Assembly: GCA_001443385.1 (NCBI GenBank) | Contig: LDXP01000008.1 | Coordinates: 1-49,178 of the forward strand | Length of the DNA stretch: 49,178 nt | Direction: 5' to 3' | Source: Candidatus Rokubacteria bacterium CSP1-6 | Lineage (GTDB): Bacteria > Methylomirabilota > Methylomirabilia > Rokubacteriales > CSP1-6 | Shown: positions 1 to 42,450 of the stretch, piece by piece | Layout of the letters: each line of letters opens with the position of its first letter | Numbering within the stretch: the stretch's first letter is position 1 | Position numbers and translations under genes: made by a program | The notes under the pieces: generated by a model | Database searches by the model: none | Seen by the model: only the letters and a program-made list of their open reading frames with translations | What the model was told of the DNA's origin: nothing

Positions 1-149
1 CCCCGCCCACTAGACGCCGTGCCGATAACCGTCGCATCCCGGCGTTCTCGGTCGTCGCCCTTCCTCAACGTACAGAGAGTACGTCTCCGGTGGGCTCCTC
101 CCTCGGGCCTTGGGCTGCTCGGTTCTCGCCACGGCGTGAACTGACCACC

Positions 150-1068: not shown

Positions 1069-2562
1069 ATGCCCTCGGACGAGCCGTTCGCGCTGATCAT
1101 CTTCGGCGCCTCGGGCGACCTGACGAAGCGCAAGCTCGTCCCCGCCCTCTGGAGCCTCTTCCAGGGGCGCGTGCTTCCCGAGCCCTTCGTCATCCTGGGC
1201 GTGGCGCGCTCGGAGATGTCCGACGAGGACTTTCGCCGCCGGATGCGAGAGGCGGTGGGCGAGTTCGCCCGGGTCCAGCCCCCCGCGGCCCACGTCTGGG
1301 AGCGCTTCGCGTCCTCCCTCTTCTACTGCCCCGGGGATCCCGCGGATGCCGCGCTCTACGACCGGCTCGGCGCGCGCCTGCGACAGCTGGAGACGGACAA
1401 GGGCACGGGCGGCAACCGGCTCTTCTACTGCTCCACCCCGCCGAGCCTCTACCCGGCCATCGTCACCCGGATGGGCGCCTCCGGGCTCCAGCGGGAAGGG
1501 AACGGCTGGACACGCGTCATCATCGAGAAGCCGTTCGGCCGGGACGTGTCGAGCGCGCGGGAGTTGAACCGGATCGTCTCCCGGGTCTTCACCGAGGATC
1601 AGGTCTACCGGATCGACCACTACCTGGGGAAGGAAACGGTCCAGAACCTCCTGGTCTTCCGCTTCGCCAACGGCATCTTCGAGCCGCTCTGGAACCGCAA
1701 CCACGTCAACCATGTCCAAATCACCGTGGCGGAGAGCCTCGGCGTAGAGGGGCGCGGCGCGTACTACGAGGAGGCCGGCGCGCTGCGCGACATGATCCAG
1801 AACCACATCCTCCAGCTGCTCTGCCTGGTGGCGATGGAGCCGCCGGTCTCCTTCGACGCCGACCCGGTCCGCGACGAGAAGACCAAGGTGCTGCGCGCCA
1901 TCCGCCCGATCCCGCCCGACGGGGTGGACGAGGTGGCGGTCCGCGGCCAGTACGGCCCCGGTTTCCTCGAGGCCCACCGCGTCCCCGGCTACCGGGCCGA
2001 GAAGGGCGTGGCGCCGGATTCCAGGGCCGAGACCTTCGCGGCGCTCAAGCTCTTCATCGACAACTGGCGCTGGGCGGGGGTCCCCTTTTACCTCCGGACG
2101 GGCAAGCGTCTCCCCAAGCGGGCCAGCGAGATCGCCATCCAGTTCTGGGGCACCCCACACCTCCTCTTCCGGCGGCCCGATCCCGCCGACCGGATCGACC
2201 CGAACCTCCTGGTCGTCCGGATCCAGCCCGACGAGGGCATCGCGCTCACGTTCGGAGCGAAGCTTCCCGGTCCGGAGATCAACATCCGCCCGGTCACCAT
2301 GGACTTCCGCTACGGCGCCTCCTTCGGCGCCGAGCCGCCCGAAGCCTACGAGCGCCTCCTGCTGGATGCTATCCACGGCGACGCGACCCTCTACGCGCGG
2401 AGCGACTGGGTGGACGCGGCCTGGCAGGTTCTGACGCCGGTGCTGGAGGCGTGGGGGGCAGGGCCGGCGCCGAAGTTTCCGAACTACGAGGCCGGCACCT
2501 GGGGGCCTGCGGAGGCGGACGCCTTCGTCGAGCGCGATGGACGGCGATGGCACCGCCCGTAG
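1069..2562 (+). CDS. zwf: glucose-6-phosphate 1-dehydrogenase
   Basis: IIFGASGDLTKRKLVPALW, RIDHYLGKETVQNLLVFRFAN and NHVNHVQITVAE motifs. Confidence 0.97.
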   Translation: MPSDEPFALIIFGASGDLTKRKLVPALWSLFQGRVLPEPFVILGVARSEMSDEDFRRRMREAVGEFARVQPPAAHVWERFASSLFYCPGDPADAALYDRLGARLRQLETDKGTGGNRLFYCSTPPSLYPAIVTRMGASGLQREGNGWTRVIIEKPFGRDVSSARELNRIVSRVFTEDQVYRIDHYLGKETVQNLLVFRFANGIFEPLWNRNHVNHVQITVAESLGVEGRGAYYEEAGALRDMIQNHILQLLCLVAMEPPVSFDADPVRDEKTKVLRAIRPIPPDGVDEVAVRGQYGPGFLEAHRVPGYRAEKGVAPDSRAETFAALKLFIDNWRWAGVPFYLRTGKRLPKRASEIAIQFWGTPHLLFRRPDPADRIDPNLLVVRIQPDEGIALTFGAKLPGPEINIRPVTMDFRYGASFGAEPPEAYERLLLDAIHGDATLYARSDWVDAAWQVLTPVLEAWGAGPAPKFPNYEAGTWGPAEADAFVERDGRRWHRP

Positions 2563-3347
2563 CCGATGTTGTCGTAGTTGCAACTCCGGCGGGGCTGGCC
2601 GAGCAGGCCGCCAGCCGCTTCGTCGAGGCCGCGACCAAAGCGCTCGCCGACTTCGGAACGTTCCGCGTCGCCCTCTCGAGCGGCACGACGCCCCAGGGCC
2701 TCTACGCGCGGCTCGCGGCCGAACCCTTTCGCTCGCGCGTGGACTGGGAGCGCGTCCAGGTTTTCTGGGGAGACGAGCGCTGTGTCCCGCCTGACCACGC
2801 CGACTCCAACTACCGCCTCGCCCACGAGCTACTCCTCTCGAGGGTCCCGGTGCGCCCGGAGAACGTGTACCGGATGCGCGGCGAGGCAATCGACCCGGAC
2901 CTGGCGGCGGCCGAGTACGCGGGCGAGCTCCAGACGGCGTTCGGCCTGAAGCGGGGCGAGCGGCCGCGGTTCGACCTCATCCTGCTGGGCATGGGGGCCG
3001 ACGGCCATACGGCCTCGCTCTTCCCGCACTCCCCCGCGCTCCGGGAAGTCACGCGCCTCGCGGTGGCCGTCTATGTGGAGGCCGTCAAGGGCTACCGCAT
3101 CACGCTGACGCTTCCGGTGCTGAACAGCGCCGCCTCCGTCTTCTTCCTGGTCAGTGGCGGCGACAAGGCCGAGCGGCTCCGGGCGGTACTGGGGGGCAAG
3201 CCTTCGCACGCGGCGCCGGCCTCCATGGTGCGGCCCGAGCGTGGCACGCTCCACTGGATCGTGGACCGTGCCGCCGCCACCGGCCTCGCCGACACGAAGA
3301 GCTCCCCTCTCCCCCCGCGGGGAGAGGGGAATCCGGGGCGGGGCTGA
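2547..3347 (+). CDS. pgl: 6-phosphogluconolactonase (SugarP_isomerase family)
   Basis: ALSSGTTPQGLYARLA, FWGDERCVPPDHADSNYRLA and LLGMGADGHTASLFPHS; start ATG at 2547 inferred (MAPPVADVVVV), overlapping the zwf 3' end. Confidence 0.92.
   Translation: MAPPVADVVVVATPAGLAEQAASRFVEAATKALADFGTFRVALSSGTTPQGLYARLAAEPFRSRVDWERVQVFWGDERCVPPDHADSNYRLAHELLLSRVPVRPENVYRMRGEAIDPDLAAAEYAGELQTAFGLKRGERPRFDLILLGMGADGHTASLFPHSPALREVTRLAVAVYVEAVKGYRITLTLPVLNSAASVFFLVSGGDKAERLRAVLGGKPSHAAPASMVRPERGTLHWIVDRAAATGLADTKSSPLPPRGEGNPGRG
3303..3330. repeat. palindromic CCTCTCCCC/GGGGAGAGG repeat inside the pgl 3' end
   Basis: perfect 12-bp stem TCCCCTCTCCCC-ccgc-GGGGAGAGGGGA; related palindromes at 9371-9422 and 48121-48192. 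Confidence 0.8.
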
Positions 3348-3351
3348 GAGG

Positions 3352-3759
3352 TCAGCGAGTGGTCGTAGAACCGGGGGCGGCGAGGACGCGGGTGGTCGTC
3401 ACCTCCACCAGGGTGTTCCACCAGCCCTCGTAGATCAGGACCTGGAGGGAGTTGCCGCCCTTCTCGTAGACCTGGGTCGTCCCGTGGCCCGGCGCGCTCG
3501 TGGAGCTGATGTGGCGCCAGCCGTTGGCCTCCAGCGTCGTCCTGAAAGCGGTGCCGAGGCTTTCCGGCTCGACCCGCCCGGCGTACACCTGCCGCGCGGC
3601 CTTGACGCTCGGGGATTCGATGATCGTGGACCTGTCGGCCTTGAATTCGAGGCCCTTGGGAACCGGGATGTCCTCGAAGCCGCTCTGCACCGCCCGCGGC
3701 GGCGTCGAGGCGCAGCCCACGATGGTGAGCAGAATGACGGCAATGCTCAGGTACCGCAT
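3352..3759 (-). CDS. small putative lipoprotein, function unknown
   Basis: lipobox-type N-terminus MRYLSIAVILLTIVGCASTP; convergent with pgl. Confidence 0.75.
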   Translation of the reverse strand: MRYLSIAVILLTIVGCASTPPRAVQSGFEDIPVPKGLEFKADRSTIIESPSVKAARQVYAGRVEPESLGTAFRTTLEANGWRHISSTSAPGHGTTQVYEKGGNSLQVLIYEGWWNTLVEVTTTRVLAAPGSTTTR

Positions 3760-3839
3760 GCTTGATCCTCCCTTCTAAGGGTTCAACGTGAGCCTACCAC
3801 GGCGGGTAGGGCGCCCCCCAAGAGAATTCTTGCCGGTGG

Positions 3840-3845
3840 TATAAT
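3840..3845 (+). promoter_or_regulatory. extended -10 promoter (TGGTATAAT), 8 nt upstream of the ATG
   Basis: TGn-TATAAT immediately upstream of the 3854 start. Confidence 0.55.
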
Positions 3846-3853
3846 TTGGGCCG

Positions 3854-5140
3854 ATGAGTCTACGTCACCCATTCCTCCGGTGCGTCGCGTGGTCGCTCGT
3901 GACGGCCCTGCTCGCCGGGTGCGCGAGCACCAAGGTGCCGCCGATCGGCGCCGGGCGGCCGTTTCAGCTCGAGGCGGACGAGCGCCGGATCTGGACGGAC
4001 GCCGAGAAGGAAGAGGCAAAGCTCGAAAAGTCGGGGAAGGTTTACGACGACCCGCTGCTCGAGGAGTACCTGGGCCGGATCGGCGATCGGCTGGTGGGGA
4101 GCGAGGTCAAGGAGGCCGGGGTGGGCCTCCGCTTCACCGTCTTCCGCGATCCCAGCCTCAACGCCTTCGCGATGCCGAACGGGCGGGTGTACGTCCACAC
4201 CGGGCTCCTCGCGCGGATCGAGAACGAGGCCCAGCTCGCCACGGTCCTCGGCCACGAGCTGACCCACGTCACCAACCGGGACGCGCTCCGCTTCCAGCGG
4301 GACGCCACGAACAAGAAAATCGCATACACCGTGGCTGCCATTGCATTGAGCATCGGCGTCGCGGTGGCGGCCGGCAAGCAGGCCGAGCACGGGAACGTCG
4401 TGGGCGCCGCGGTGCTGAGCCAGACCGCCAACGCGATCCTCGGTCTCGGGCTCCAGCTCGCGGCTCTGGCCGCCATCAATGGGTACGGGCGGGACATCGA
4501 GCGCCAGGCCGACGAGGAGGGCCTGGCCCGGATGGTCAAGGCCGGCTACGACCCCACGCAGGCCCCGCGGGTCTACCAGCTGCTCAAGAAGGACGGCGGC
4601 GATCCGGGTCGGCTCGAGAACTTCTTCTTCGGCGACCACCCGCGCCTGGACGAGCGCATCGAGACCACCGGCGCGCTCCTCGCGAGCCGCTACGCCGCCC
4701 AGGCCCAGGCGCCGGACCGGATCGTCGATACCCCGGAGTTCAATCTTCGAATACGCACGGTGGTGAGGGAGAACGCCGCGCTGGACATTCGCGCCGGCCG
4801 CTTCAACCTGGCCAAGGCCCAGCTCGACCGGGTGCTGGCCATCATCCCGCGCGATCCGGTCGCGCATCTCTACTACGGCGACCTCTACCGGATCCAGTCC
4901 CAGCGGGCGAGGGCGCTGGCTGATAAGGAAAGCCTGGTTCGGCGCGCGATCGACGAGTACACCGAGGCCGCCCGGCTCGACCCCGCGTATCCGGACCCGT
5001 TCCGTCAGCTCGGCTTCCTCTACTACCAGCAGGAGGAACGGGACCGGGCGCGCGAAGCGTTCCAGACCTACCTCCGGCTCAAGCCCGACGCCCCCGACGC
5101 GCGCCGCATCAAGGAGTATCTCCTCGAGCTCGACCGCTAA
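3854..5140 (+). CDS. M48-family metalloprotease lipoprotein with C-terminal TPR (BepA/LoiP-like)
   Basis: signal/lipobox LLAGCAST; HELTHVTNRDA (HExxH); ERQADEEGLARMVKAGYDP; TPR-like C-terminus. Confidence 0.9.
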   Translation: MSLRHPFLRCVAWSLVTALLAGCASTKVPPIGAGRPFQLEADERRIWTDAEKEEAKLEKSGKVYDDPLLEEYLGRIGDRLVGSEVKEAGVGLRFTVFRDPSLNAFAMPNGRVYVHTGLLARIENEAQLATVLGHELTHVTNRDALRFQRDATNKKIAYTVAAIALSIGVAVAAGKQAEHGNVVGAAVLSQTANAILGLGLQLAALAAINGYGRDIERQADEEGLARMVKAGYDPTQAPRVYQLLKKDGGDPGRLENFFFGDHPRLDERIETTGALLASRYAAQAQAPDRIVDTPEFNLRIRTVVRENAALDIRAGRFNLAKAQLDRVLAIIPRDPVAHLYYGDLYRIQSQRARALADKESLVRRAIDEYTEAARLDPAYPDPFRQLGFLYYQQEERDRAREAFQTYLRLKPDAPDARRIKEYLLELDR

Positions 5141-5178
5141 GGCGTGGCGCAGCCCGTCCAGGCCTACCGCCTCCCTGG

Positions 5179-5184
5179 TATAAT
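5179..5184 (+). promoter_or_regulatory. extended -10 promoter (TGGTATAAT) close to the start codon
   Basis: TGGTATAATccgagccacccgATG; no Shine-Dalgarno-like sequence between. Confidence 0.5.
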
Positions 5185-5196
5185 CCGAGCCACCCG

Positions 5197-8100
5197 ATGA
5201 TCTGCCCCCGCTGCCGGCACGAGAACACCCCCGCCGCCAGGTTCTGCGTCGAGTGCGGACAGAAGCTGGCTCCCGGCTGCCCCCAGTGCGGCGCCGAGGT
5301 TCCGGCGGCAGCCAAGTTCTGCGCCCAGTGCGGGACGTCCCTGACGCCGGCGGCGCCACCCGAAAAAAACTTCGCGTCACCCCGCGCCTACACTCCCGCC
5401 CACCTGGCGGAGAAAATTCTCAAAGCCCGCGGGGCGCTCCAGGGCGAGCGGAAGCAGGTCACGGTCCTTTTCGCCGACGTGTCGGGGTTCACGGCCATCT
5501 CGGAGAAACTGGATCCCGAGGAGGTCCACCGCCTCATGAACGGCGCCTTCGAGCTGATGCTGGGCGCCATCCACCGATTCGAGGGGACGGCAAACCAGTT
5601 TCTCGGCGACGGCCTCATGGCGCTCTTCGGCGCGCCCATCGCCCACGAGGACCACGCCCAGCGCGCCGTGCACGCGGCGCTCGAGATCCAGCGCGCCCTC
5701 CGCGACTACCGCGAGCGGCTCGGGCGCGAGCGTGGCGTGGACTTCAGGATGCGGATCGGGCTCAACACCGGGCTCGTGGTGGTCGGCGCCATCGGCGACA
5801 ACCTCAGGATGGATTACACGGCCGTCGGCGACACTACCAACCTGGCGGCCCGGATGCAGCAGATCGCCCAGCCGGGCCAGATCATCGTGGCCGAACCCAC
5901 CCACCGCCTCGTCCACGGCTACTTCGAGACCCACTCTCTCGGCAGCGTCACCGTGAAGAACCGGCAGGAACCCGTCGGGGCGTGGGAGGTCGTGCGGTCC
6001 AAGGGGGTGCGGACCCGCCTGGCGGTCCAGGCCGAGCGCGGGCTGACGCCGTTTGTCGGCCGGGAGCAGGAGCTCCTGGCCATGGAGCGGGCCTTCGCCC
6101 TGGCGAAGGACGGCCACGGCCAGATCGTCTTCCTGGTGGGCGAGGCCGGCATGGGGAAGTCCCGCCTCCTCCTGGAGTTCCGGCGGCGGGGCGAGGGAGA
6201 AACGGTGACCTGGCTCGAAGGGCCGTGCATCTCCTTCGGCAAGTCCATTCCTTTCCTGCCCATCATCGAGATGCTGAAGCGGAATTTCCACATCGAGGAT
6301 GCGGACTCGGAGGCCGAGATCATCGCCAAGGTGGACCGGGGATTAGCGTTCCTCGGTGGTGATGCCCCGGCGGTCGCACCGTATCTCAAGTATCTGCTGT
6401 CTGTGAATCCCGGAGATCCCGCCGTGGCCGCCCTGGACCCCGCGCAGCGGCGACCGCGCATCTTCGAGGCCCTCCGCCAGATCACCCTCAGGGGAAGCCG
6501 GCGTCGCCCCATCGTCATGGTGATCGAGGACCTCCAGTGGATGGACGCGGCTTCGGAGGAATATCTGAAGTTCGCGGCCGACAGCCTGGCGGGCGCAGCG
6601 GTGCTCCTGATTCTGACGTACCGCCCCGGCTATTCCCAGCCCTTCGGGGATCGAACGTACCACTCCCGCATCGCGCTCGGGCCACTCTCCGACGAGGAGA
6701 GCGCCCGCATGGCGCGGGGGCTCCTCGAGGCCTCGGATCTGCCGGAAGAAGTGCGGGCGATGGTGAGCCGGAAGGCCGAGGGAAATCCCTTCTTCCTCGA
6801 GGAAATCCTCCGCTCCCTCGTGGAGACGGGCGCGCTCCGCCGCGACAACGGCCGGTACGTCCTGGCCCGATCGGCGGGAGACATTCACGTCCCCGACACG
6901 ATCCAGGATCTCATCATGGCGCGCATCGACCGGCTGGCCGACGAGCAGAAACGGACGGTTCAGGTGGCGTCCGTCATCGGCCGGGAGTTCGCGCTCCGCC
7001 TCCTCAAGCGGATCTCGGACATTCGCGAGCAGGTGGAGCGGTGCCTCGGCGAGCTGAAGAGCCTGGAGTTCATCTACGAGAAGACCATCTTCCCCGACCC
7101 GGAATACATCTTCAAGCATGCGCTCACCCACGACGTGGCCTACGCCTCGATCCTCCACTCCCAGCGCCGGGAGCTCCACGCGACCATCGGACTGGCCGTC
7201 GAAGAGCTGTACGCCGACCGGTTGGAGGAACGATTGGAGGAGCTGGCCTATCATTTCGGCCAGGGCGAGGTTTGGGATAAGGCGTTCCACTACCTCCGTC
7301 AAGCCGGGGCGAAGGCGGTGGCCCTCTGCGTGGACCGCGAGGCGGTGGGTTTCTACGAGCGGGCTCTGGAGGCGCTCGACCACCTCCCCGAAGACCCGGA
7401 GCGCGACCGCCAGGCCATCGACCTCCGCCTCGAGATGCGCGCCCCCCTCTGGCGCCTGGGACGGCTCGATCGGCTGTTCACCCTCTTCCAGGGGGCGGAA
7501 GAGCTTGCCCGGCATCTCGGAGACCCAGTCCGCCTCCATAAGATTTACGCTTTCCTGGTGCAGTACTACTGGGCCATGGGCGAGCCGATGCGCGCCATCG
7601 AGTACGGCCAGCGTTGTCTTGAGACGGCCGACGCCCTGAACAACCTGACGCTCCGGGTCACGGGGAACCTCTACCTCGGTCACGCCTACCATTCCCTCGG
7701 GCAGTTCGCCAAGGCTGTCGAGTACCTCGCCCGGAACGTGGAGCTGCTCGAGGGGGAGCGAGCCAGGGAGCAGTTCGCCCTATCAGGGTTACCCTACGTG
7801 GTCTCCTGCGCCTGGGCCCTTGAATCGCTTGCGTTCCTGGGAGAGTTCGAGCGAGCGGAGGAGCTCGCTCGGCGTGGCGCCCGGGTGGCGGAGGCTGCCG
7901 ACCACCCCTACAGCCTAGCCGCGATCCGGACCTGCACCGGCTATCTCCACACCTTCAAAGGGGAACTCTCGGAAGCCATCGCGCTGCTGGAACCGGCTCT
8001 GCGCGTCTGCCGCGAGAAGAACTTCGCGGGCTGGACGATGCGATCCGCCACAGCCCTCGGAATCGCCTACGCCCTGACAGGCCGCCCAGCTGAGGCTATA

Positions 8101-11815: not shown

Positions 11816-11899
11816 GTTTACCTCCAGGGGCTGCGTCCCCAGCAATGTATCGGATTCTGGACGTTGACGCCAGAGGATCAGCGCCAGACAATCGCGGCT

Positions 11900-13420
11900 A
11901 TGCTGGCCCGGGTGCTCTCGGCCGCCGTGACCGGGATCGAGGCCGCGCTCGTCTCCGTCGAGGTGGACGTCACGTCAGGCCTTCCCGCCTTCAACATGGT
12001 CGGGCTCCCCGATTCCACCATCCGCGAGAGCCGCGACCGCGTCAGGAGCGCCATCCGGAACGCGGGCTACACCTTCCCCATGGAGCGCATCACGGTCAGC
12101 CTTGCCCCCGCGGATCTCCGAAAGGAAGGTGCCGCCTTCGACCTCCCGATCGCCCTGGGAATCCTCGCTGCCACGGGACTGGTGAAGGGTGACGCCCTCC
12201 AGCGTTTCCTCCTGATCGGCGAGCTCTCCCTCGACGGCGAGGTCCAGCCGGTGCGCGGCGTGCTGCCCATCGCGCTCGCCTGCCGCCGCGAGGGGCTCGA
12301 CGGCCTCCTCCTCCCCGCCGCCAACTGCCGCGAGGCCGCCATGATCTCCAACCTCACGGCCCTCCCGCTCCGACGCCTCAGCGAGGCCGTTGAGTGGCTG
12401 GCCGGCGAGCGAACGATCGAGCCGGCGCGCGTGGACCCCGAGGCGCTGGCCGGTCAGGCGAGCGTGGACGACGTGGACTTCTCCGAGGTCCGGGGCCAGG
12501 CCCACGCCAAGCGGGCCCTCGAGATCGCCGCCGCCGGCGGCCACAACGTCCTCATGATCGGCCCGCCCGGCGCTGGGAAAACGCTGCTCGCCCGCCGGCT
12601 TCCCACGATCCTGCCCCCTCTCGCGCTGGAGGAAGCGATCGAGGTCTCCGCCGTGTGGAGCGTGGCCGGGCTCCTGGCTCCGAATGATGGGCTGCTGAGA
12701 GTTCGTCCCTTCAGGGCGCCCCACCACACGATCTCCGAGGCCGGGCTCATCGGCGGCGGGAGTGTTCCCCACCCGGGGGAAGTGAGCGTCGCTCATTCGG
12801 GCGTGCTCTTCCTCGACGAGATGCCCGAGTTTTCCCAGCACGTGCTCGAGAGCCTCCGCCAGCCCCTCGAAGACGGCGCCGTGGTCGTGGCGCGCGCCGC
12901 GGGGGCCTCGCGCTTTCCCGCCCGCTTCCAGCTCGTGGGCGCCGCCAACCCCTGCCGCCGGGGCTGCCCCAGCCTCCAGGCCTGCCTCTGCACTCCCGGC
13001 GAGCGCGAGCGCTACCTGGCCCGCCTCTCGCGCCCTTTGCTGGACCGGATCGACCTCCACCTGGACGTCCCGGCGGTCCCCTTCCGGGAGCTCTCCCGGG
13101 ACGCGTCCGGGGAAACGTCGGCGGCGATCCGCGAGCGCGTCCTCAGGGCGCGCGCGATTCAGGCGCAGCGCTTCACGAAATCGGCGGCCCGCGTGAACGC
13201 GCGCATGAGCGCCAGCCAGCTCCGGCGATTCTGCGCCATCCCCGCCGACGGGCAGAAGCTCCTCGCCCTGGCCGTCGAGCGGCTCGGGCTCTCCGCCCGC
13301 GGCCACGACCGGATCTTGAAGGTGGCGCGGACTATCGCGGACCTGGAAGGTCGTGAGACAATCGCGGCCGAGCACCTCGCCGAGGCGATCCAGTACCGTG
13401 GCCTGGACCGGTGGCTCTGA
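11900..13420 (+). CDS. comM: YifB/ComM family Mg-chelatase-like AAA+ ATPase
   Basis: MLARVLSAAVTGIEAALVSVEVDVTSGLPAFNMVGLPDSTIRESRDRVRSAIRNAGY; GPPGAGKTLLARRLPTILPPL; C-terminal AEAIQYRGLDRW. Confidence 0.95.
   Translation: MLARVLSAAVTGIEAALVSVEVDVTSGLPAFNMVGLPDSTIRESRDRVRSAIRNAGYTFPMERITVSLAPADLRKEGAAFDLPIALGILAATGLVKGDALQRFLLIGELSLDGEVQPVRGVLPIALACRREGLDGLLLPAANCREAAMISNLTALPLRRLSEAVEWLAGERTIEPARVDPEALAGQASVDDVDFSEVRGQAHAKRALEIAAAGGHNVLMIGPPGAGKTLLARRLPTILPPLALEEAIEVSAVWSVAGLLAPNDGLLRVRPFRAPHHTISEAGLIGGGSVPHPGEVSVAHSGVLFLDEMPEFSQHVLESLRQPLEDGAVVVARAAGASRFPARFQLVGAANPCRRGCPSLQACLCTPGERERYLARLSRPLLDRIDLHLDVPAVPFRELSRDASGETSAAIRERVLRARAIQAQRFTKSAARVNARMSASQLRRFCAIPADGQKLLALAVERLGLSARGHDRILKVARTIADLEGRETIAAEHLAEAIQYRGLDRWL
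13349..13420 (+). repeat. 72-bp direct repeat copy 1 (functional comM 3' end)
   Basis: ggtcgtgagacaatcgcggccgag...gaccggtggctctga; matches 15404-15475 at 66 of 72 positions. Confidence 0.95.
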
Positions 13421-13442
13421 GTGTCGGAATCTCTCCCGTTGG

Positions 13443-15335
13443 CTACCGCCGCTCAGCGGGACTTCCAGCCGATGTCGGGGGAGGCAGTTGTCCGGCGAGG
13501 CGCGGATTGAGGCGACGGAGAATTTCGGATTGCTCCTGGGCCGCGGCGGTGTTCCCCAAGGCCAGATATGCACGCGCAAGCCCGAGGCGTGGCAGCGGGG
13601 CATTCTGATAGAGCGCGATCGCGCGCTGGAAGTAGGGGATCGCGTCCATAGGCCTGCCGAGTTCGACCAGTGCTATCCCGAGGTGCGTGAGGGCGCCCAT
13701 GTGAGTCGGGTTCTGTCGGATAACCAGCTCCAGGTGTGGAACCGCCTCCCCGGGCTTTCGTTGTTGGACGAGGGCTTCACCCAGATAGGCCCTCGCGTCA
13801 ACATTCCCGGAGTCCTCTGAAAGGACCCGCTGGAAGTGTTCGCTGGCTCTCGCTGGGTCACCAACTCGCAGCAGGACGAACCCGAGGTTGTGGTGGGCGA
13901 CGAGGAGGTGGGGTCTGGACGCCACGGCGCGCTCAAAATGCTCGATCGCCCGGGGGAAAAGGCCGCGGCTGCCCAGGGCAACACCCAAGTTGTTGTGGCA
14001 CCACGCGCAGTCCGGGTCGATTTGCAGAGAATGGCTCCACAGCGTGTCCGGATCTCGCCAGATCTGCACCTGGTTCCAGGTGAGCGCCCCCAGCCCGATG
14101 ATCCAGGCTGCGGTAGCCGCCAGTGCCGCGCGCGCCAGCGGTCGAGTAAGTGAGCGACCGGTCGCGCCCCTGACCATGGCGGCCACCGCCGCCCCCGCGA
14201 GGAGGGTCCAGCCGAGACATGAAAGATAGCTGTAGCGGTCGGCGGCGAGTTGTCCGCCATCATGGAATAGGCCGCTCACCGGCAGCAACATCACAATGTA
14301 AGTGAGCCACACGGCCAAGCCGGCAGGCCACCGCCGCCGGAGCAGGAAGAACCCCGCGGAGAGAATTCCGACCGCGATTGCGCTCCCGAGGAGCGGCAGA
14401 GCCAGCGGGTCGACCGGCCCACGTAACTCGTACAAGGGTGAGAGCCCCTGGGGCAACACGGTCTTCCAGACATAGAAGCAGAAGCTCCAAAGCGCGATGG
14501 CCACACGGGAGAGGAGAGGCAACTTCTCTAGGGATGTCGGTGACGACCCAGTCCGCACCGCGTAAAGCGCGATGGCTCCTCCGATGAGGGACAGGAGGAG
14601 ATAGGGCACCTTCTCCTTCCACACCTGCCGGACTTGGGGAGCGAACCAGTCCCGCAACCGTCCACCGATGCGGCCGAGCGGGTACGCGTCGATCACAATC
14701 AGAACAAAGGGGAGCGTCATGACAATGGACTTCGACGCCAAGGCAAGAATGTAGCATCCCACCGAACTGCCCAGCCATCTTCGTCGTGTTGCGCCCTGCG
14801 CGTCGCACGCGTTCAGGTACGTCAGGATCGTAAGCAGGAAGAAGAGGCCCGAGAGGACGTCGCGGCGTTCCGTCACCCAGGCCACGGACTCTGCTCGAAG
14901 GGGGTGCAGAGCGAAGGAGAGTGCCGCCGTCGCCGCGCCCAAGCGAAGCCCGATCTCTCCAAACCCCGTCATGGCCTTTGCAAGCAGCCGGTAGGCCACG
15001 AAATAAAATGCTGCGGCGTTGGCGGCGTGGAGCAGGATGTTCGTGAGGTGATAGCCGATTGGGTTCATTCCCCACACGAGATAATCCAGGCCAAACGTAA
15101 TCCAGGTCAGGGGAATCCAGTGCCCCATGAGGAAGGTGGTGAACATCCATCGGAGTTGCTCCCAGCCGAGTCCCCGGAAGTGCGGGTTGTTGAGGAAGTT
15201 TGCCGAGTCGTCCCAGTCCAGGAATTGGTTCGGAAGCGCGGGGGAGTAAATGACGAACGTCACCACCCCAATGGTGATGGCAAGGCCACTCCGACCCAGC
15301 AAGGCAGAAACAAGACGAAGGACACTGGCCGCCAT
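13443..15335 (-). CDS. polytopic membrane protein with C-terminal TPRs (TMTC / O-mannosyltransferase-like)
   Basis: multi-TM N-terminus, VTERRDVLSGLFFLLTILTYL, LAADRYSYLSCLGWTLLAGA, then TPRs (LGVALGSRGLFPRAIEHFERAVASRP...); start placed at 15335. Confidence 0.85.
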   Translation of the reverse strand: MAASVLRLVSALLGRSGLAITIGVVTFVIYSPALPNQFLDWDDSANFLNNPHFRGLGWEQLRWMFTTFLMGHWIPLTWITFGLDYLVWGMNPIGYHLTNILLHAANAAAFYFVAYRLLAKAMTGFGEIGLRLGAATAALSFALHPLRAESVAWVTERRDVLSGLFFLLTILTYLNACDAQGATRRRWLGSSVGCYILALASKSIVMTLPFVLIVIDAYPLGRIGGRLRDWFAPQVRQVWKEKVPYLLLSLIGGAIALYAVRTGSSPTSLEKLPLLSRVAIALWSFCFYVWKTVLPQGLSPLYELRGPVDPLALPLLGSAIAVGILSAGFFLLRRRWPAGLAVWLTYIVMLLPVSGLFHDGGQLAADRYSYLSCLGWTLLAGAAVAAMVRGATGRSLTRPLARAALAATAAWIIGLGALTWNQVQIWRDPDTLWSHSLQIDPDCAWCHNNLGVALGSRGLFPRAIEHFERAVASRPHLLVAHHNLGFVLLRVGDPARASEHFQRVLSEDSGNVDARAYLGEALVQQRKPGEAVPHLELVIRQNPTHMGALTHLGIALVELGRPMDAIPYFQRAIALYQNAPLPRLGLARAYLALGNTAAAQEQSEILRRLNPRLAGQLPPPTSAGSPAERR

Positions 15336-15403
15336 ATATCTCGAACTCCCTCCAGATGAGTGTAAGCCACACGCAGAGACATTCAAAGTATCATCGTCCC
15401 CCA

Positions 15404-15475
15404 GGTCGTGAGACAATAGCCGCCGAGCACCTCGCCGAGGCGATCCAGTATCGCGGCCTCGACCGATGGCTCTGA
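15404..15475 (+). repeat. 72-bp direct repeat copy 2 (orphan comM 3' end)
   Basis: ggtcgtgagacaatagccgccgag...gaccgatggctctga; encodes GRETIAAEHLAEAIQYRGLDRWL* identically to copy 1. Confidence 0.95.
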
Positions 15476-15502
15476 TGCCTGCGCGAGGAGGTAGAGGGAG
15501 GC

Positions 15503-16063
15503 ATGCCGCACCCGATGAAGCTCACCCGCGACGGGAGCGCGCTCATCGTGGTGGACGTGCAGGAGCGGCTCTTCGCCGCCATGGACGCCGAGCACCGGGA
15601 GGAAGTGGTCAAGAACCTCAAGGTGCTTGCGACGGCAGCCCGGCGACTCGGGCTGCCGACCCTGATCACCGAGCAGTACCCCGGGGGGCTCGGCCACACG
15701 CTGCCCGAGCTCAAGGAAGCGCTCGGTCCCGTCGAGCCGGTCGAGAAGGTGGCGTTCTCCTGCTGCGACGCCGAGGGGTTCAGTTCCCGGCTCAAGGCGA
15801 CCGGTCGGAGGCAGGTGATCCTGGCGGGGATCGAGGCCCACGTCTGCGTCCTGCTGACCGGCCTCGACCTCCTGGCGGACGGCTACACCGTGCACGTGGC
15901 CGCCGACGCCGTGACCTCGCGCACCCAGGGGAGCTGGCGGATGGGCGTGGATCAGCTCCGGCAGGCCGGCGCGGTGATCACCACGACCGAGAGCGTGCTC
16001 TTCCAACTCCTCCAGAAAGCCGACACGGACGACTTCCGCATCCTCGCCAAGCTGATCAGGTAA
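15503..16063 (+). CDS. isochorismatase-like cysteine hydrolase
   Basis: SALIVVDVQERLF, LITEQYPGGLG, VEKVAFSCCDAEGF, QVILAGIEAHVCVLLTGLDL. Confidence 0.9.
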   Translation: MPHPMKLTRDGSALIVVDVQERLFAAMDAEHREEVVKNLKVLATAARRLGLPTLITEQYPGGLGHTLPELKEALGPVEPVEKVAFSCCDAEGFSSRLKATGRRQVILAGIEAHVCVLLTGLDLLADGYTVHVAADAVTSRTQGSWRMGVDQLRQAGAVITTTESVLFQLLQKADTDDFRILAKLIR

Positions 16064-16511: not shown

Positions 16512-16718
16512 CGGCGGGCCGAGAAGCGAGCCGGGTACCCACCGAAGGTGGGTGGAGGCCCGAGGGAGGAGCACACCGGAGGCGTAACGACCCAGCCCGC
16601 CTCCTGCGGGACTGGGTGCCCGCAAAGGAGTGGCGACGACCGAGAGGTCATCGGTCGCCGAAGGCGATCCCTGGCGGGCACCCGCGAAGCGGGTCGTGCG
16701 AAGCTTATCGGCCCGCCG
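16512..16718. other. structured intergenic element bounded by 11-bp inverted repeats
   Basis: CGGCGGGCCGA (16512-16522) / TCGGCCCGCCG (16708-16718) enclosing several hairpins, including 16590-16617 and TGCCCGC.../...GCGGGCA. Confidence 0.6.
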
Positions 16719-25931: not shown

Positions 25932-26049
25932 CATTCCAAGACCGAATGCGTTGGGCCTGTCATTGCGCCACGTGGATTTCCAAATACCTGGACCGGCCCG
26001 CCTGCGGTACACTAACGGGAACGACACTCGGGTAGGGTGACAGCAGTTC

Positions 26050-27789
26050 ATGGCACAAAGCAAAGTCGGACAGCCAGTTAGCCGGCGCCTGGGGGATCTC
26101 CTCGTCAACGAGGGCCTCATCACCCAGGAAAATCTGCAACGCGCCCTCGCCGAGCAGAAGGGCTCGAACGAGAAGCTCGGCTCGATCCTCGTCCGGCTCG
26201 GGCTCATCCAGGAAGATCAGCTGATCGGCTTCCTCTCCCGCCAGTATGGCATCCCGTCCATCACGCTCTCCCAGCTCGACATCGACCCCGAGGTCGTCAA
26301 GCTCGTGCCGGCCCAGATCGCCAAGAAGTACGAGGTGCTCCCCGTCAAGCGCACGGGCAACGCCCTGACGCTGGCCATGGCCGACCCGACGAACGTCTTC
26401 GCCCTCGACGATGTCGCCTTCATGACGAACCTCCAGGTCCTCCCGGTGGTAGCCTCCCAGGGCGCCATCCGCCAGACCATCGAGCGCCTCTACGAGCCGC
26501 AGGCCTCCGCCTTCAGCGAGGTCATCACCGCCATGGAGGGGGAAGCCCCCGACGTGGAGCTCGTGGAAGGCGGGGAGGATGTCGCGCCGTCGAAGATCGA
26601 CATCTTCGAGCTGAAGGACGCGTCCGAGGAGGCGCCGGTCGTCAAGCTGGTCAACCTCATCCTGACCGACGCCATCCGCCGGGGCGCCTCCGACATCCAC
26701 CTGGAGCCGTACGAAAAGGTGTTCCGGGTCCGCTACCGCATTGACGGCGTGCTGCAGGAAATGATGGCGCCGCCGAAGCGGCTCGAGGCCGCGCTTCTCT
26801 CCCGCGTGAAGATCATGTCCAACTTGGACATCGCCGAGCGCCGGCTCCCCCAGGACGGGCGGATCAAGATCCGCTACTCGAGCCGGGAGATCGATCTCCG
26901 CGTCTCCACGCTGCCGACGATCTTCGGCGAGAAGATCGTGATGCGAATCCTCGACAAAGAAGCGCTCACGCTCGATCTGGCGAAGCTTGGCTTCGACGAC
27001 TGGAGCATGGAGAACTTCAAGAAAGTGATCCACCAGCCCTACGGCATGATTCTGATCACCGGGCCAACCGGGTCCGGCAAGACGACGACCCTCTACTCCG
27101 CCGTCCACACCATCAACTCGCCGGACATCAACATCATGACCGCCGAGGACCCGGTGGAGTACAACCTGAAGGGGGTCAACCAGGTCCAGGTCAACGAGGA
27201 GATCGGACGCACCTTCTCCGCGGTCCTCCGGTCCTTCCTCCGCCAGGACCCCGACGTCATCCTGGTGGGCGAGACTCGCGACCTCGAGACCGCTCAGATC
27301 GCCATCCGCGCCGCTCTCACGGGCCACCTCGTCTTCTCCACCCTGCATACCAACGACGCCCCCGGCACCATCGCCCGGCTCCAGGACATGGGGATCCCGC
27401 CATTCCTGGTGGCCTCATCCATCCTCCTGGTGCTGGCCCAGCGCCTGGCGCGCCGGGTCTGCAAGGAGTGCCGGGAGCCCTACGAGGTTGACGAGGAGAG
27501 CCTGACGCCCTACGGCCACGTCCCCCAGGGGCTGGGGAGGGTCACCCTGTACAAGGGCAAGGGATGCCAGGCCTGCAACTTCACCGGGATGAAGGGGCGA
27601 ACGGCGATGTACGAGGTGATGGTGGTCAGCAGCGAGATCCGGGAGCTGATCCTGCGTGGCTCCAGCACCACCGAGCTGCGCGAGCTGGCACAGCAGCAGG
27701 GGATGAAAACCCTCCGCCAGGCGGGGCTCTTGAAAGTGCTCGAGGGGGCCACCACGGCGGAGGAGATTCTCCGCGTGACGATCGGCTAG
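26050..27789 (+). CDS. pilB: type IVa pilus extension ATPase PilB (GspE family)
   Basis: GspE N-terminal domain; GPTGSGKTTTLYSAVHTIN; VGETRDLETAQIAIRAALTGHLVFSTLHTNDAPGTIARL; tetracysteine zinc motif CKEC...CQAC. Confidence 0.97.
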   Translation: MAQSKVGQPVSRRLGDLLVNEGLITQENLQRALAEQKGSNEKLGSILVRLGLIQEDQLIGFLSRQYGIPSITLSQLDIDPEVVKLVPAQIAKKYEVLPVKRTGNALTLAMADPTNVFALDDVAFMTNLQVLPVVASQGAIRQTIERLYEPQASAFSEVITAMEGEAPDVELVEGGEDVAPSKIDIFELKDASEEAPVVKLVNLILTDAIRRGASDIHLEPYEKVFRVRYRIDGVLQEMMAPPKRLEAALLSRVKIMSNLDIAERRLPQDGRIKIRYSSREIDLRVSTLPTIFGEKIVMRILDKEALTLDLAKLGFDDWSMENFKKVIHQPYGMILITGPTGSGKTTTLYSAVHTINSPDINIMTAEDPVEYNLKGVNQVQVNEEIGRTFSAVLRSFLRQDPDVILVGETRDLETAQIAIRAALTGHLVFSTLHTNDAPGTIARLQDMGIPPFLVASSILLVLAQRLARRVCKECREPYEVDEESLTPYGHVPQGLGRVTLYKGKGCQACNFTGMKGRTAMYEVMVVSSEIRELILRGSSTTELRELAQQQGMKTLRQAGLLKVLEGATTAEEILRVTIG

Positions 27790-27852
27790 GCGACAGGCCG
27801 GAAACCCGGCACTCGGCGAATCTTCGACTTGAGAATAAAGGAACGGTGACAC

Positions 27853-28962
27853 ATGGCCGCGACGATGCACGAGCTGTTGACCATCCTGATCGACCGGGGG
27901 GGGTCTGACCTCCACCTCACGACCGGCACGTACCCCCAGATACGGCTGCACGGGAGGCTCGTCCCGCTGACCGAATTCGAAGTCCTGGCGCCGCAGGACA
28001 CGCAGCGCCTGGGCTACAGCGTCCTCAACGAAGGCCAGAAGCAGAAGTTCGAGGAGGAGAACGAGCTCGACCTGTCCTTCGGCATCCAGGGGCTGGCCCG
28101 CTTCCGGTCCAACGTCTTCCGCCAGCGGGGGGCGGTGGCGGCCGCGATCCGCGTGATCCCCTTCAAGATCCGCTCCTTCGACGACCTGGGGCTGCCCCCG
28201 GTGGTGGCGCAGCTCGCGGAGCGCCCGAAAGGACTCGTCCTCGTGACGGGCCCGACGGGCTCCGGGAAGTCCACGACGCTGGCGGCCATGCTCGACAAGA
28301 TCAACAACGAACGCTCGGACCATATCGTCACCATCGAGGATCCCATCGAGTTCGTTCACCAGCACAAGAAGTGCATGGTGAACCAGCGCGAGGTCACCTC
28401 GGACACCCACTCGTTCACCCAGGCGCTGAAGTACGTCCTCCGCCAGGATCCGGACGTCGTCCTGATCGGCGAGATGCGTGACCTGGAAACGATCTCCGCC
28501 GCCCTCACCATCGCCGAGACCGGCCACCTGACCCTGGCCACCCTGCACACGAACTCCTGCGCCCAAACCATGAACCGAGTCATCGACGTGTTCCCCCCCC
28601 ACCAGCAGCCCCAGGTCCGGTCCCAGCTCTCGCTGGTGCTCGAGGGCGTGCTCTCCCAGACCCTGATTCCCCGGGCCGACGGCAGGGGGCGCGTGATGGC
28701 GCTGGAGATCATGATCAACACCCCCGCCATCCGAAACCTGATCCGGGAAGAGAAGATCCACCAGATCTACTCCGCCATGCAGGCGGGGACGAAGTTCGGG
28801 ATGCAGACCCTGAACCAGTCCCTTGGCTCACTGGTCCAGCGGGGTCTTATCACCCGCGACGATGCCATGAACCGGTCGACGCTTCCCGACGAGCTCAACC
28901 AGCTCCTGTCCGGAATGGCGTCGCGCGTCGCGGCGGAAGCGACCCCGTTCGCGAGACACTGA
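27853..28962 (+). CDS. pilT: type IV pilus retraction ATPase PilT
   Basis: MHELLTILIDRGGSDLHLTTGTYPQIRLHG; GPTGSGKSTTLAAMLDKIN; IGEMRDLETISAALTIAETGHLTLATLHTNSCAQTMNRVIDVFP. Confidence 0.97.
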   Translation: MAATMHELLTILIDRGGSDLHLTTGTYPQIRLHGRLVPLTEFEVLAPQDTQRLGYSVLNEGQKQKFEEENELDLSFGIQGLARFRSNVFRQRGAVAAAIRVIPFKIRSFDDLGLPPVVAQLAERPKGLVLVTGPTGSGKSTTLAAMLDKINNERSDHIVTIEDPIEFVHQHKKCMVNQREVTSDTHSFTQALKYVLRQDPDVVLIGEMRDLETISAALTIAETGHLTLATLHTNSCAQTMNRVIDVFPPHQQPQVRSQLSLVLEGVLSQTLIPRADGRGRVMALEIMINTPAIRNLIREEKIHQIYSAMQAGTKFGMQTLNQSLGSLVQRGLITRDDAMNRSTLPDELNQLLSGMASRVAAEATPFARH

Positions 28963-28978
28963 GGAGGAGGGAGTCGCG

Positions 28979-30192
28979 ATGCCGTTCTTCGCTTATCAGG
29001 GACGCACCACCCAGGGCTCCACCGCCGGCGAGATCGAAGCGCCCGACCGCACGGCCGCCGTCGCGGAGCTGCGCCGCAAGGCCATCCTGGTCACCCAGAT
29101 CAAGGAAAAGGCCGGCGGGCCGGCGAGGGCCGCCGGCGTCGGTGGGCGCTTCGGCGGCAAGGTCAAGGACAAGGAGATGGCGATCTTCACCCGCCAGTTC
29201 TCCACGATGGTGGACGCGGGGCTTCCCCTGGTGCAGTGCCTGACGATCCTGGCCGAGCAGAGCGAATCGAAGACCCTCCGCACGGTGACGTCCAGGGTGG
29301 CCGGAAGCGTGGAGGCGGGGTCCACCCCGCCGACGCCCTCCGGAGGCACCCGAAGACCTTCGACGAGCTGTACGTGAACCTGGTCGAGGTCGGAGAGGCG
29401 GGCGGTATCCTGGACACGGTCCTCCAGCGGCTGTCCGTCTACATCGAAAAGGCTGCGGCCCTGAAGCGGAAGGTCAAGTCCGCCATGATCTACCCCCTGA
29501 CCATCGTCGGCGTCGCGTTCATCGTGGTTATCTTCATGCTCACCTTCGTCATCCCGACATTCGCCAAGATGTTCGCCGGCATGGGGGCCGATCTCCCCCT
29601 GCCCACGCTGATCGTCATCAGGCTCTCCGACTTTGCGACCCGCTTCTGGTGGCTCATCCTCGGGGGCGCCATCGGCATCGTGGTCGGGATCCGCGCCTAC
29701 TACAGGACGGAGGGCGGGCGATCGCTCATCGACGCCCTCGTGCTCAAGCTTCCCGTGTTCGGCACGCTGATCCGAAAGGTGTCGGTGGCCCGCTTCACCC
29801 GCACCCTCGGCACGCTGGTCTCGTCCGGCGTCCCGATCCTGGAGGGTCTTCGCATTACCGCGCGGACGGCGGGCAACCGTGTCGTGGAGCGGGCGGTGCT
29901 GGAGACCCGCGCCTCCGTCACCGCCGGGAAGACGCTGGCGGAGCCGCTGAAGGCTTCCACGGTCTTCCCCCCCATGGTCGTGCAGATGATCTCGGTGGGC
30001 GAGCAGACGGGCGCCCTGGACGCGATGCTGAACAAGATCGCCGACTTCTACGACGACGAGGTGGACACTGCCGTCACCGCGCTCACGGCCCTGCTCGAGC
30101 CGATGATGATCGTGTTCCTGGGCGTGGTCATCGGCGGCCTGGTCATCGCCATGTACCTCCCGATCTTCAGGCTGGTGACCCTGGTCAAATAG
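28979..30192 (+). pseudogene. pilC: type IV pilus inner-membrane platform protein PilC, split by a -1 frameshift near 29323-29328
   Basis: frame 1 MPFFAYQGRTTQGS...VEAGST; frame 2 resumes ADALRRHPKTFDELYVNLVEVGEAGGILDTVLQRL...; one base missing in the ccacccc run. Confidence 0.9.
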
Positions 30193-30195
30193 CGA

Positions 30196-31842: not shown

Positions 31843-31853
31843 GGCATCCGACC

Positions 31854-33251
<1,398 letters not shown>

Positions 33252-33392
33252 CGTTTTTTGACGGGGCCGCCAACAGATTGCGTCAGCGTTCGGACCGGAA
33301 TCGACGCAGAGACTAGCCCGGGGTGGTTCCAAATCGCTCGTCTTTCCCACCACTTACCCTGAGAGCCGTCCACCGGAGCGTATCCCCGATCC

Positions 33393-33409
33393 CTGGCATC
33401 GAACCTGCA
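33393..33409 (+). promoter_or_regulatory. sigma-54 (-24/-12) promoter upstream of pilA
   Basis: CTGGCATcgaaccTGCA; GG-N10-GC spacing. Confidence 0.8.
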
Positions 33410-33505
33410 GGATAACCGGGCAGGGATGAGGGAACTCATAGGCTCCCTCGAACGCTCGGAGGACAAAGGGTCCTCGGAATCCCTAAACCGAGAGAAAAAA
33501 GGAGG

Positions 33506-33988
33506 ATGACTCAGATGATGAAGTGGTGGAGGAAGCGGGTGACCTTCGGTAACCGACGGGGCTTCACGCTCATCGAGTTGATGATCGTGGTGGCCATCAT
33601 CGGGATCCTGGCGGCGATCGCGGTGCCGCTGTACCAGAACATCCAGTCACGGGCGCGGACCGCGAAGGCCCAGGCCGATACGCGCTCGATCGCCTCGGCG
33701 ATCGTCCAGTATTCCGCCCACTGCGGCGATTACCCAGCAAGCGCTGGCGATAGCTGCATGGGCCCCTTGCCGGGCGCTGGCGGCGCCCTCTATGCCGCGG
33801 GCGGCCTGACTGGGGTGGTGACCAATTCTGGCAACCAGACGGCTGGCCCGTTCTTCTCGGCGAATCCCGTTCCCCCCGCCGGCTGGGGCGCAGCCTATCT
33901 CGTCGCGTACCCGGCGCCAGGCACGTTCTCGGTCACCGCGACCCCGACCAACGGCGACAACAGCGGCAACCCGGTCGTAGCTCCGTAG
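33506..33988 (+). CDS. pilA: type IV major pilin PilA
   Basis: [53 protein letters not shown] prepilin motif; strong RBS ggagg. Confidence 0.93.
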
Positions 33989-34013
33989 CTGAGACCGCAA
34001 GCCCAAACGACGG

Positions 34014-34040
34014 AGGGGAGGCCAAAATCTGGCCTCCCCT
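34014..34040 (+). terminator. rho-independent terminator after pilA
   Basis: AGGGGAGGCCA-aaatc-TGGCCTCCCCT perfect 11-bp stem followed by ctttgt. Confidence 0.85.
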
Positions 34041-34117
34041 CTTTGTCTCCCGGGTGGGGCTGCTGGAAAGGACCCCCCCACTGTGATAGAGGACAGAGAG
34101 GATGGAGGAGGCTCCGC

Positions 34118-34240
34118 GTGGCGCGGTTCGTGCACCGAAGAGGCCCTCGCGGCTTCACGCTCATCGAGCTTCTGGTCGTCGTGGATATCATCGGGATCCT
34201 GGCGGCCAGCGGCGACGGAACCGTGGTGACGGTGCCGTGA
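34118..34240 (+). pseudogene. truncated type IV pilin (N-terminal helix only) or micro-pilin
   Basis: GTG start with ggaggagg [43 protein letters not shown]. Confidence 0.7.
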
Positions 34241-34262
34241 GGCCCGCGGTGGCGAGGAAGGC

Positions 34263-35027
34263 ATGATGGTGGCGGGTGCCCTCGCGCTGGGAGGAATCGT
34301 GGGGAGCTTCCTCAACGTCTGCGCCTCGCGCCTCCCCAATGGGAGAAGCCTCTGGAGGCCCGGCTCGGCCTGCCCCGCCTGCGCGCACCCCATCCGCTGG
34401 TACGACAACGTGCCCGTCCTCAGCTTTATGGTCCTCCGGGGGCGTTGCCGGGACTGCCGCGCGCCTATCGCGTGGCGGTATCCGGGCGTGGAGTTCGGAA
34501 CGGCGCTGCTCTTCGCCCTCGCCTACGTCCACCTCGGGCTCGGCTGGGAGCTGGCCCTCGCCTTCGTCTTCCTTTCGGCGCTCATGGTCATCACGGTCAT
34601 CGACCTCGAGCACCAGCTGATCCCGGACCGGATCACCCTGCCGGTCATCGCGGCCGGCTTTCTGGCCAGCGTGGTCCTGGGCCGGCCCTCCTGGCCCCAT
34701 TCGCTCCTGGGCATCGTCGTGGGCGGAGGAATCATCTACGCGATCATCCTGGGCAGCCGGCTGGTCATGGGGGTGGAAGGGATGGGCGGAGGCGATATCA
34801 CGCTTGCCGCCATGCTCGGCGCGTTTCTCGGCTGGAAACTTTTGCTCCTCGGCCTGTTTCTGGCGGTGCTGCTCGGAGCCGGCGTTGCCGTGGCGCTCCT
34901 GGCCACCGGCCGGAGAGGCGGGAAGGATCCGATCCCCTTCGGCCCATTCCTGGCCTTGGGGGGCGCGGTCAGTCTGTTTTGGGGGAAGGAGATCCTGCAA
35001 TGGTACCTCAGAGGATTCGTCGGCTAG
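34263..35027 (+). CDS. pilD: prepilin peptidase/N-methyltransferase PilD
   Basis: GGIVGSFLNVCASRLP; CPAC/CRDC cysteine pairs; VIDLEHQLIPDRITLP; GGGDITLAAMLGAFLG. Confidence 0.95.
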   Translation: MMVAGALALGGIVGSFLNVCASRLPNGRSLWRPGSACPACAHPIRWYDNVPVLSFMVLRGRCRDCRAPIAWRYPGVEFGTALLFALAYVHLGLGWELALAFVFLSALMVITVIDLEHQLIPDRITLPVIAAGFLASVVLGRPSWPHSLLGIVVGGGIIYAIILGSRLVMGVEGMGGGDITLAAMLGAFLGWKLLLLGLFLAVLLGAGVAVALLATGRRGGKDPIPFGPFLALGGAVSLFWGKEILQWYLRGFVG

Positions 35028-35485
35028 ATCGGGGAGGCTGGAGCCTCCTGGAACTCTTGGTGGTGGTCGCCATCATCGGGATTCTCGCCGCGATCGCGAT
35101 CCCGCTGTTCGCCAGCTATTGGCGGAGCGCGGCGGTCAGGGCGGGAGCCCAGGAGATGCGCACCGCCCTGCTCCAGGCCAAGCAGCTCGCCATCACGCGG
35201 CGCCAGCCCATCTGCGTCCTGCCCGTCGCAGCTCCCGTCAACGGGTACCAGTTCCGCCAGAACAACTGCGCTGGCGCGGTCGTCCCCCTCCAGTTCACGC
35301 CCGGGGCCTTGGCGGGGGGAACCTTCCGCCTCCAGAACAACGTCACGGTCGCCGCCCTCGCAGGGCCCCCCGTCTTCACCCCGCTCGGCGCGGCCGCCCC
35401 GGGCGGACAGTTCCGGGTGACCGGCCCGAGCGGCGATGCCCTTACCATCACGGTCTCGGCGGCCGGTCGCGTCACCTCCCCTTAG
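35000..35485 (+). CDS. GspH/FimT-like pseudopilin
   Basis: [63 protein letters not shown]; overlaps the pilD 3' end. Confidence 0.88.
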   Translation: MVPQRIRRLDRGGWSLLELLVVVAIIGILAAIAIPLFASYWRSAAVRAGAQEMRTALLQAKQLAITRRQPICVLPVAAPVNGYQFRQNNCAGAVVPLQFTPGALAGGTFRLQNNVTVAALAGPPVFTPLGAAAPGGQFRVTGPSGDALTITVSAAGRVTSP

Positions 35486-35496
35486 AACCTCGGGCC

Positions 35497-35531
35497 AAAG
35501 AGGGCCGGAGACCGGGTCTCCGGCCCTCTTT
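35497..35531 (+). terminator. strong intrinsic terminator (15-bp stem)
   Basis: AAAGAGGGCCGGAGA-ccggg-TCTCCGGCCCTCTTT. Confidence 0.85.
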
Positions 35532-35635
35532 GAATCCTGTCAGTAGCAAGACACCCTCTCAGACACCTGTCAGTATCCCTTGCCTCTCCTCGGCCGGGCG
35601 CCCCCGGAAACCCCTTGGTATGTCATCTCTATGGC

Positions 35636-35652
35636 CTGGCACATGCGATGCA
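35636..35652 (+). promoter_or_regulatory. candidate sigma-54 promoter upstream of the pilM operon
   Basis: CTGGCACatgcgaTGCA; GG-N10-GC; about 335 nt before pilM. Confidence 0.5.
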
Positions 35653-35851
35653 TTCCCATCGTCCGAGAGTCTGGGACTGATGGCAGCGACTCACAGAACG
35701 AACCGGGCCGACGGCCGCCCTGCAGGGACCTGGGGGCGTGGATCCTCAGGCCGGCCCCATCCACCCCTCCGCGTCGAAAACCCCTAGCCATTGCCCCTCC
35801 CCGGGCAACCCTCCAGTCCCCGTTGTGGTAAGGGCAATGTCCAGAGAAAAG

Positions 35852-35881
35852 TTGACTTTAAAAAATCGAACTACCTATAAT
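35852..35881 (+). promoter_or_regulatory. sigma-70 promoter of pilMNOPQ (TTGACT-N18-TATAAT)
   Basis: AT-rich island in GC-rich DNA with near-consensus hexamers. Confidence 0.75.
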
Positions 35882-35987
35882 TACTGCAATTCGACATTTC
35901 CGCTTATTTTAAAAGGGGTTCTCTTATCCTCAGTTCGGGGCCGATCCGGCCGGGTCGGCAGGGAGTAAAGGAAGAGGGTTAGGGGCG

Positions 35988-42406: not shown

Positions 42407-42410
42407 CGCG

Positions 42411-42450
42411 ACCACGCCGGCCTCCGGCCGGTCGTGGTGCCCGCAAAGGA
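42411..42450 (+). other. structured element B: bulged hairpin + GCCCGCAAAGGA, between aroC and aroB
   Basis: ACCACG-CCGGC-ctccg-GCCGG-t-CGTGGT-GCCCGCAAAGGA; shares architecture and a 15-mer with 16590-16629. Confidence 0.6.

Follow-up and report, generated by a model that had tools for sequence, protein, structure and literature searches.

The 3' end of comM occurs twice within a 49,178-nucleotide stretch of DNA from Candidatus Rokubacteria bacterium CSP1-6 (hereafter the window, which is contig C8 of the G000 assembly, a single draft of 2.88 Mb in 158 contigs), and a single gene on the opposite strand lies between the two copies (Table 1). How did this gene come to lie there, and why does a second comM end survive beyond it? 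Re-alignment bore out the 72-nt repeat described by a first-pass annotation of the window. The copies lie on the same strand at an offset of 2055 nt and agree at 66 of 72 positions (67 of 73 counting the preceding A), with abrupt loss of identity at both edges. Mismatches fall at repeat positions 15, 18, 48, 51, 57 and 63, all of them third codon positions, and either copy translates to GRETIAAEHLAEAIQYRGLDRWL and a stop. Together with pilin N-termini, the repeat makes up the two longest and most similar direct-repeat families of the window. A separate set of dispersed GC-rich pieces (window 80-110, 16556-16629 and 42409-42450; 31-42 nt, 81-94% alike) may represent a REP-like family.

Table 1. 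Features of the comM locus and its surroundings, in window coordinates.
Feature	Position	Strand	Remarks
comM promoter-like TTGACG-N17-GACAAT	11864..11892	+	-10 hexamer identical to that of the repeat
comM (YifB/ComM family; Mg_chelatase, ChlI, Mg_chelatase_C)	11900..13420	+	506 aa, full length
Repeat copy 1 (proximal)	13349..13420	+	final 23 codons plus stop codon of the working gene
Cargo gene: TMTC-like membrane protein, 630 aa, TPRs at the C-terminus	13443..15335	-	Pfam TPR repeats
Unique junction, cargo start to copy 2	15336..15402	.
Repeat copy 2 (distal), a displaced and probably native comM end within the present isochorismatase 5' leader	15404..15475	+
TGAGACAAT, extended -10-like element of the downstream gene	15409..15417	+	consensus-like and conserved; twin at 13354-13362 in copy 1
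Isochorismatase-family hydrolase gene	15503..16063	+	directly after comM in empty-site relatives
Site after pilR-like gene (31854-33251) where family relatives keep the TMTC-like gene	33252..35987	.	empty in G000

The first-pass annotation had argued that a local duplication could not leave only synonymous differences, which overstates the case. When the copies were compared with five relatives, the derived state was confined to copy 2 at positions 48 and 63 and to copy 1 at positions 15 and 18, with 51 and 57 ambiguous. Because copy 1 is under selection as part of comM, chance need account for the silence of no more than two to four changes in copy 2. These site counts make the argument weaker than it was stated, and the comparative evidence carries the case.

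The same annotation had predicted islet-free relatives in which a single comM end precedes the isochorismatase gene. Five such genomes were found: the congeners G001 and G002, and G016, G021 and G022, which represent three other genera of the same family. In all five the isochorismatase gene starts within about 25 nt of the comM stop codon. Downstream gene order agrees for approximately 18 kb in G002 and G016, and synteny is conserved on both sides of the islet. We are highly confident that the interval is an insertion that displaced the comM end, whatever the route by which it arrived.

Pfam models confirmed TPR repeats in the cargo protein; the TMTC label that it had also been given found no counterpart, as no GT-C family model matched. 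A check of third-position composition agreed with the earlier impression that the interval is less GC-rich than its neighbours: cargo GC3 is 0.758, comM has 0.903 and most other gene calls in the window fall at 0.83-0.95, two ORFs at 25960-28761 (GC3 near 0.64) being also low. The nearest relatives of the cargo, at 58-59% in G012 and G016, belong to homologues with GC3 of 0.85-0.94. Congeners G001 and G002 have no orthologue. Many family members carry a TMTC-like gene after pilR, approximately 18 kb downstream of comM, and tree comparisons rejected both a clade of the G000 and G016 copies (p=0.007) and a grouping of G000 with the G016, G035 and G018 copies (p=0.011). A donor search of 85,462 genomes returned only 40-41% matches, in a Planctomycetota and a Deltaproteobacteria bin, and found no genome in which comM is followed by this cargo gene. 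Judged from these comparisons, the cargo is likely to have come from outside the G000 lineage but within the wider gene pool of the family. Conservation of the TMTC-like gene after pilR, beside pilins (window 25960-36000), invites the guess of a role in pilin modification. A 51-nt direct repeat around the TMTC-like gene of G035 was considered as an insertion scar and rejected, the repeat being pilin N-termini.

A profile of the last 47 ComM residues, run over 95 genomes of the class, found extra partial comM ends in several of them, and other cargo occupies the site in G030/G094, G039, G042/G043 and G073, as had been predicted. In G042 and G043, which belong to another family, comM is followed by a DUF433 and DUF5615 pair and a 107-nt comM end, then by a small ORF, a 43-nt comM remnant, an MNT/HEPN pair and a 488-nt comM fragment; the last part of the array sits on another contig in G042. 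The G043 array (L052, reverse complement, 1636-6368) comprises one full comM and three partial ends with toxin-antitoxin-type pairs between them. G073 carries a type II methyltransferase and a restriction enzyme (REase_II, E=2.8e-119) followed by an 87-nt comM end, and G039 carries HigBA followed by a short comM end, beyond which the downstream sequence is native. The largest insertion, 43.6 kb in G030 (C75:72688-116280), holds a type I CRISPR-Cas system (30-repeat array, Cas3, Cas8a) and genes for sulphur transport and sulphite reductase; beyond it come a decayed comM end and the isochorismatase gene, after which gene order resumes. G094 shares the kind of foreign comM end seen in G030, and G085 has two comM ends with no gene between them. 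The working comM is full length in G000, G030, G043, G073, G039 and G085, and within each family comM and its downstream gene are conserved while the cassettes between them differ. Extra or short matches in G013, G033, G058 and G091, at contig ends or in incomplete assemblies, were not counted, and a 17-aa remnant on another contig of G055 was left aside. As controls, the C-termini of MetK (PF02773) and RuvB gave no displaced partial ends in 82-83 genomes. A further control, guaA, is a recognised island target; it showed extra 3' ends in three genomes (G049:C204, G054:C91 and G055:C64), two of them in tandem in G054.

The duplicated ends share their right edge, which lies at the stop codon or within a few nucleotides of it in all cases. 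Their left edges vary, at about 25, 73, 87, 96, 107 and 488 nt before the stop, and the remnant ends measure about 25-43 nt; a fixed att core or constant repeat length was rejected on the variability of these left edges among insertions. Some coincidences were seen. The left edges of the single event shared by G042 and G043, of G085 and of G030 all fall at the KVART codons, and the left edge of the displaced end reads AGGTCG in both G000 (window 15403) and G043 (L052, reverse complement, 3916) and GGGTCG in G085 (L109, near the second comM end). These three edges occupy different positions in comM. The first-pass remark that no recombinase is visible was upheld for G000 by a contig search with the tyrosine and serine recombinase models PF00589 and PF00239. 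This search covered ten genomes, and both families were absent from the comM contigs of G000, G030, G094, G042, G043, G073 and G085; the exceptions were G039, with a match 59 kb away, and a long contig of G044, at least 18 kb from comM. On viral contigs from IMG/VR (L110-L134), comM fragments begin near contig ends at codons for conserved motifs, namely Walker A (~215), Walker B (~300), MNPCPCGY (~350) and DRIDLH (~380), and the point near codon 350 is also where the 488-nt fragment of G043 begins. Among the 33 viral loci searched, none was an element with only the last 25-35 comM codons, and the one short fragment was cut by the contig start. These contigs suggest that prophages from a range of hosts insert into comM at several positions; the gene has probably been used by integrases, though its last 35 codons were not among the places where this was seen.

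In two genomes the donor end is distinguishable from the native one. The proximal comM end of G043 and the 66 nt past its stop match G044 (186 nt, 86%), and its distal end and the 250 nt beyond match G045 (84%). Likewise, the distal end of G030 is identical at 82 of 96 positions to the native end of its congener G010, to which the proximal end has no close match. These alignments mark the proximal end as foreign in both genomes and identify the distal end as native, a Campbell-like polarity. G000 offers few informative sites: copy 1 differs from G002, G001 and G022 at 6, 6 and 4 positions and copy 2 at 5, 4 and 5, which places copy 2 slightly closer to the congeners and copy 1 slightly closer to G022. 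Copy 2 is probably native, and copy 1, on these few sites, may be foreign. Empty sites, recurrence and the polarity in G043 and G030 together back the original proposal that the islet arrived with a homologous comM end, restored the reading frame and displaced the native end.

The displaced tail appears to contain more than the end of comM. Codons 484-488 (GGT CGT GAG ACA ATA) are invariant in six species when copy 2 is used for G000, and the sequence GGTCGTGAGACAATAG, at the repeat's left edge, does not vary among copy 2 and all five empty-site relatives. It begins a nine-codon run of invariant third positions, the longest in comM, against a background of 27%. The element includes codons that are rare in the genes of the window (ACA, 1.9%; ATA, 0.3%), and in copy 1 of G000 the ATA beside it has become ATC. 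G018 and G035 have a near-identical element in the interval between comM and the next gene. The displaced copies of G030 and G085 retain the element despite a broken stop or frame, while their working comM genes are without it. A simple consensus scan of 13250-15560 found no sigma-70 site, since the element has no good -35 in that interval. We infer, from conservation rather than a mapped transcript start, that the last codons of comM hold the promoter of the downstream gene, and the displaced tail probably survives for that reason. The 15-nt identical block that had been put forward as a crossover core is conserved in the relatives because it carries this promoter-like element.

In the explanation that we favour, incoming DNA would have consisted of a homologous comM end followed by the cargo. 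Its left side would have recombined with the resident comM, with the donor's end restoring the reading frame, and its right side would have been attached by a non-homologous joint within the comM tail of the recipient, thereby pushing the native tail beyond the cargo. Only joints upstream of the promoter-like element would have been tolerated in this lineage; that copy 2 starts a few nucleotides before TGAGACAAT would follow, as the tail would have to retain the next gene's promoter. Such one-sided homologous recombination fits right edges that lie at the stop codon, left edges that vary, a foreign proximal and a native distal end and the lack of a recombinase. The KVART coincidence and the AGGTCG edges speak against this homology-facilitated illegitimate route, which does not predict them with a non-homologous joint. 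Taken as a whole, the account of an acquired one-gene islet, one-sided homologous recombination, an illegitimate far joint and a promoter limit seems to us about evenly poised between right and wrong.

The islet might instead be the relic of a site-specific integrative element that used the comM 3' end as attB and restored the gene, its integrase since lost or acting in trans. In prophage e14 and phage 21 at icd, the gene end is restored by the incoming end, and silent differences are the classic signature; restoration of comM in frame with silent differences resembles these cases, and the KVART left edges, the viral cuts at conserved codons and the codon-350 start of the G043 fragment point the same way. 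Yet the repeat lengths differ among cases, the edge in G000 lies elsewhere than at KVART, neither PF00589 nor PF00239 was found in any islet, including that of 43.6 kb, and none of the 33 viral loci supplies an element carrying only the last 25-35 comM codons. We consider such a relic possible, though not probable. Positional preference also underlies an unlikely broader reading, in which the comM 3' end would be a recombinase-free accretion site across the class, where successive modules (R-M, TA, CRISPR-Cas and surface-protein genes) are stacked, each bringing a comM end, and a preference for KVART codons or an AGGTCG edge would imply a trans-acting enzyme or ComM-linked DNA uptake.

Explanations confined to G000 itself fare less well. 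Relocation of the family's TMTC-like gene from pilR to comM, with a local tail duplication that kept both comM and the promoter, would explain why G000 is without the gene at the place where its relatives have it, and separate later changes in one copy or the other could account for most of the six silent differences. But the cargo does not group with the G016 or G016/G035/G018 copies, as vertical descent would require, the congeners are entirely without the gene, the cargo GC3 departs from that of its nearest homologues and the same signature occurs with foreign cargo in other genomes, all of which makes internal rearrangement distinctly improbable. That two strains were joined at the repeat during assembly is a natural concern for a single draft, in which repeats at junctions are a common failure point; no exact stretch shared by the copies exceeds about 30 nt, synteny holds to the left and to the right, G042 and G043 each carry the array, and the foreign comM end of G030 recurs in G094, so a chimera is highly improbable.

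We found no report of this comM-end site in the literature. Gene-end islands and insertion with long target duplication are already known; the locus, the class and the involvement of a promoter are new. In bacteria known chiefly from draft genomes, the cases make up a natural series of insertions at the end of one gene, and in some of them donor and native ends are separable. They suggest a rule by which a gene tail that overlaps the next promoter must be duplicated for an insert to be tolerated, after which the protein function would stay with one copy and the promoter with the other. In this class, the comM end may also be worth searching for defence (anti-phage) and toxin-antitoxin genes.

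As in the gene 3'-end islands e14 and phage 21 at icd or SGI1 at trmE, the incoming end appears to restore the gene and silent differences result; unlike them, the comM islet is without an integrase or a constant core, and the draft assembly shows no sign of excision. SGI1 is described at the trmE 3' end in PMC8409611. The transposon-derived AbaR islands of Acinetobacter also target comM but interrupt and inactivate it (PMC7508600), whereas comM in G000 stays whole. The minimal mobile element of Neisseria, as defined in PMC3082526, likewise places cassettes that vary from genome to genome between a pair of conserved genes and has no recombinase of its own; at comM, in contrast, the end of the anchor gene is duplicated and right-hand homology is not needed. 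Insertion with long target duplication (Nobusato et al. 2000; reviewed in PMC3874152 and shown in PMC1643837) involves R-M genes and long, variable target copies. Our cases are similar in that cargo lies between long, variable direct copies of the target (~100 bp), relatives have the empty site and the cargo is R-M or TA in several genomes of the class (R-M in G073). They differ in that the cargo of G000 is neither R-M nor TA (R-M being typical rather than strictly required), the target is a recurrent gene 3' end with a promoter-like element and the two comM copies differ, one end being foreign in G043 and G030. Homology-facilitated illegitimate recombination has been proposed for T6SS immunity arrays and Rhs orphan tips in V. 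cholerae (PMC5361080), and there, as is proposed here, a one-sided homology anchor is combined with a non-homologous joint on the other side, the old 3' part is kept downstream and repeated events build arrays, as in G043; what is kept intact at comM is the end of a housekeeping gene rather than an effector or toxin tip.
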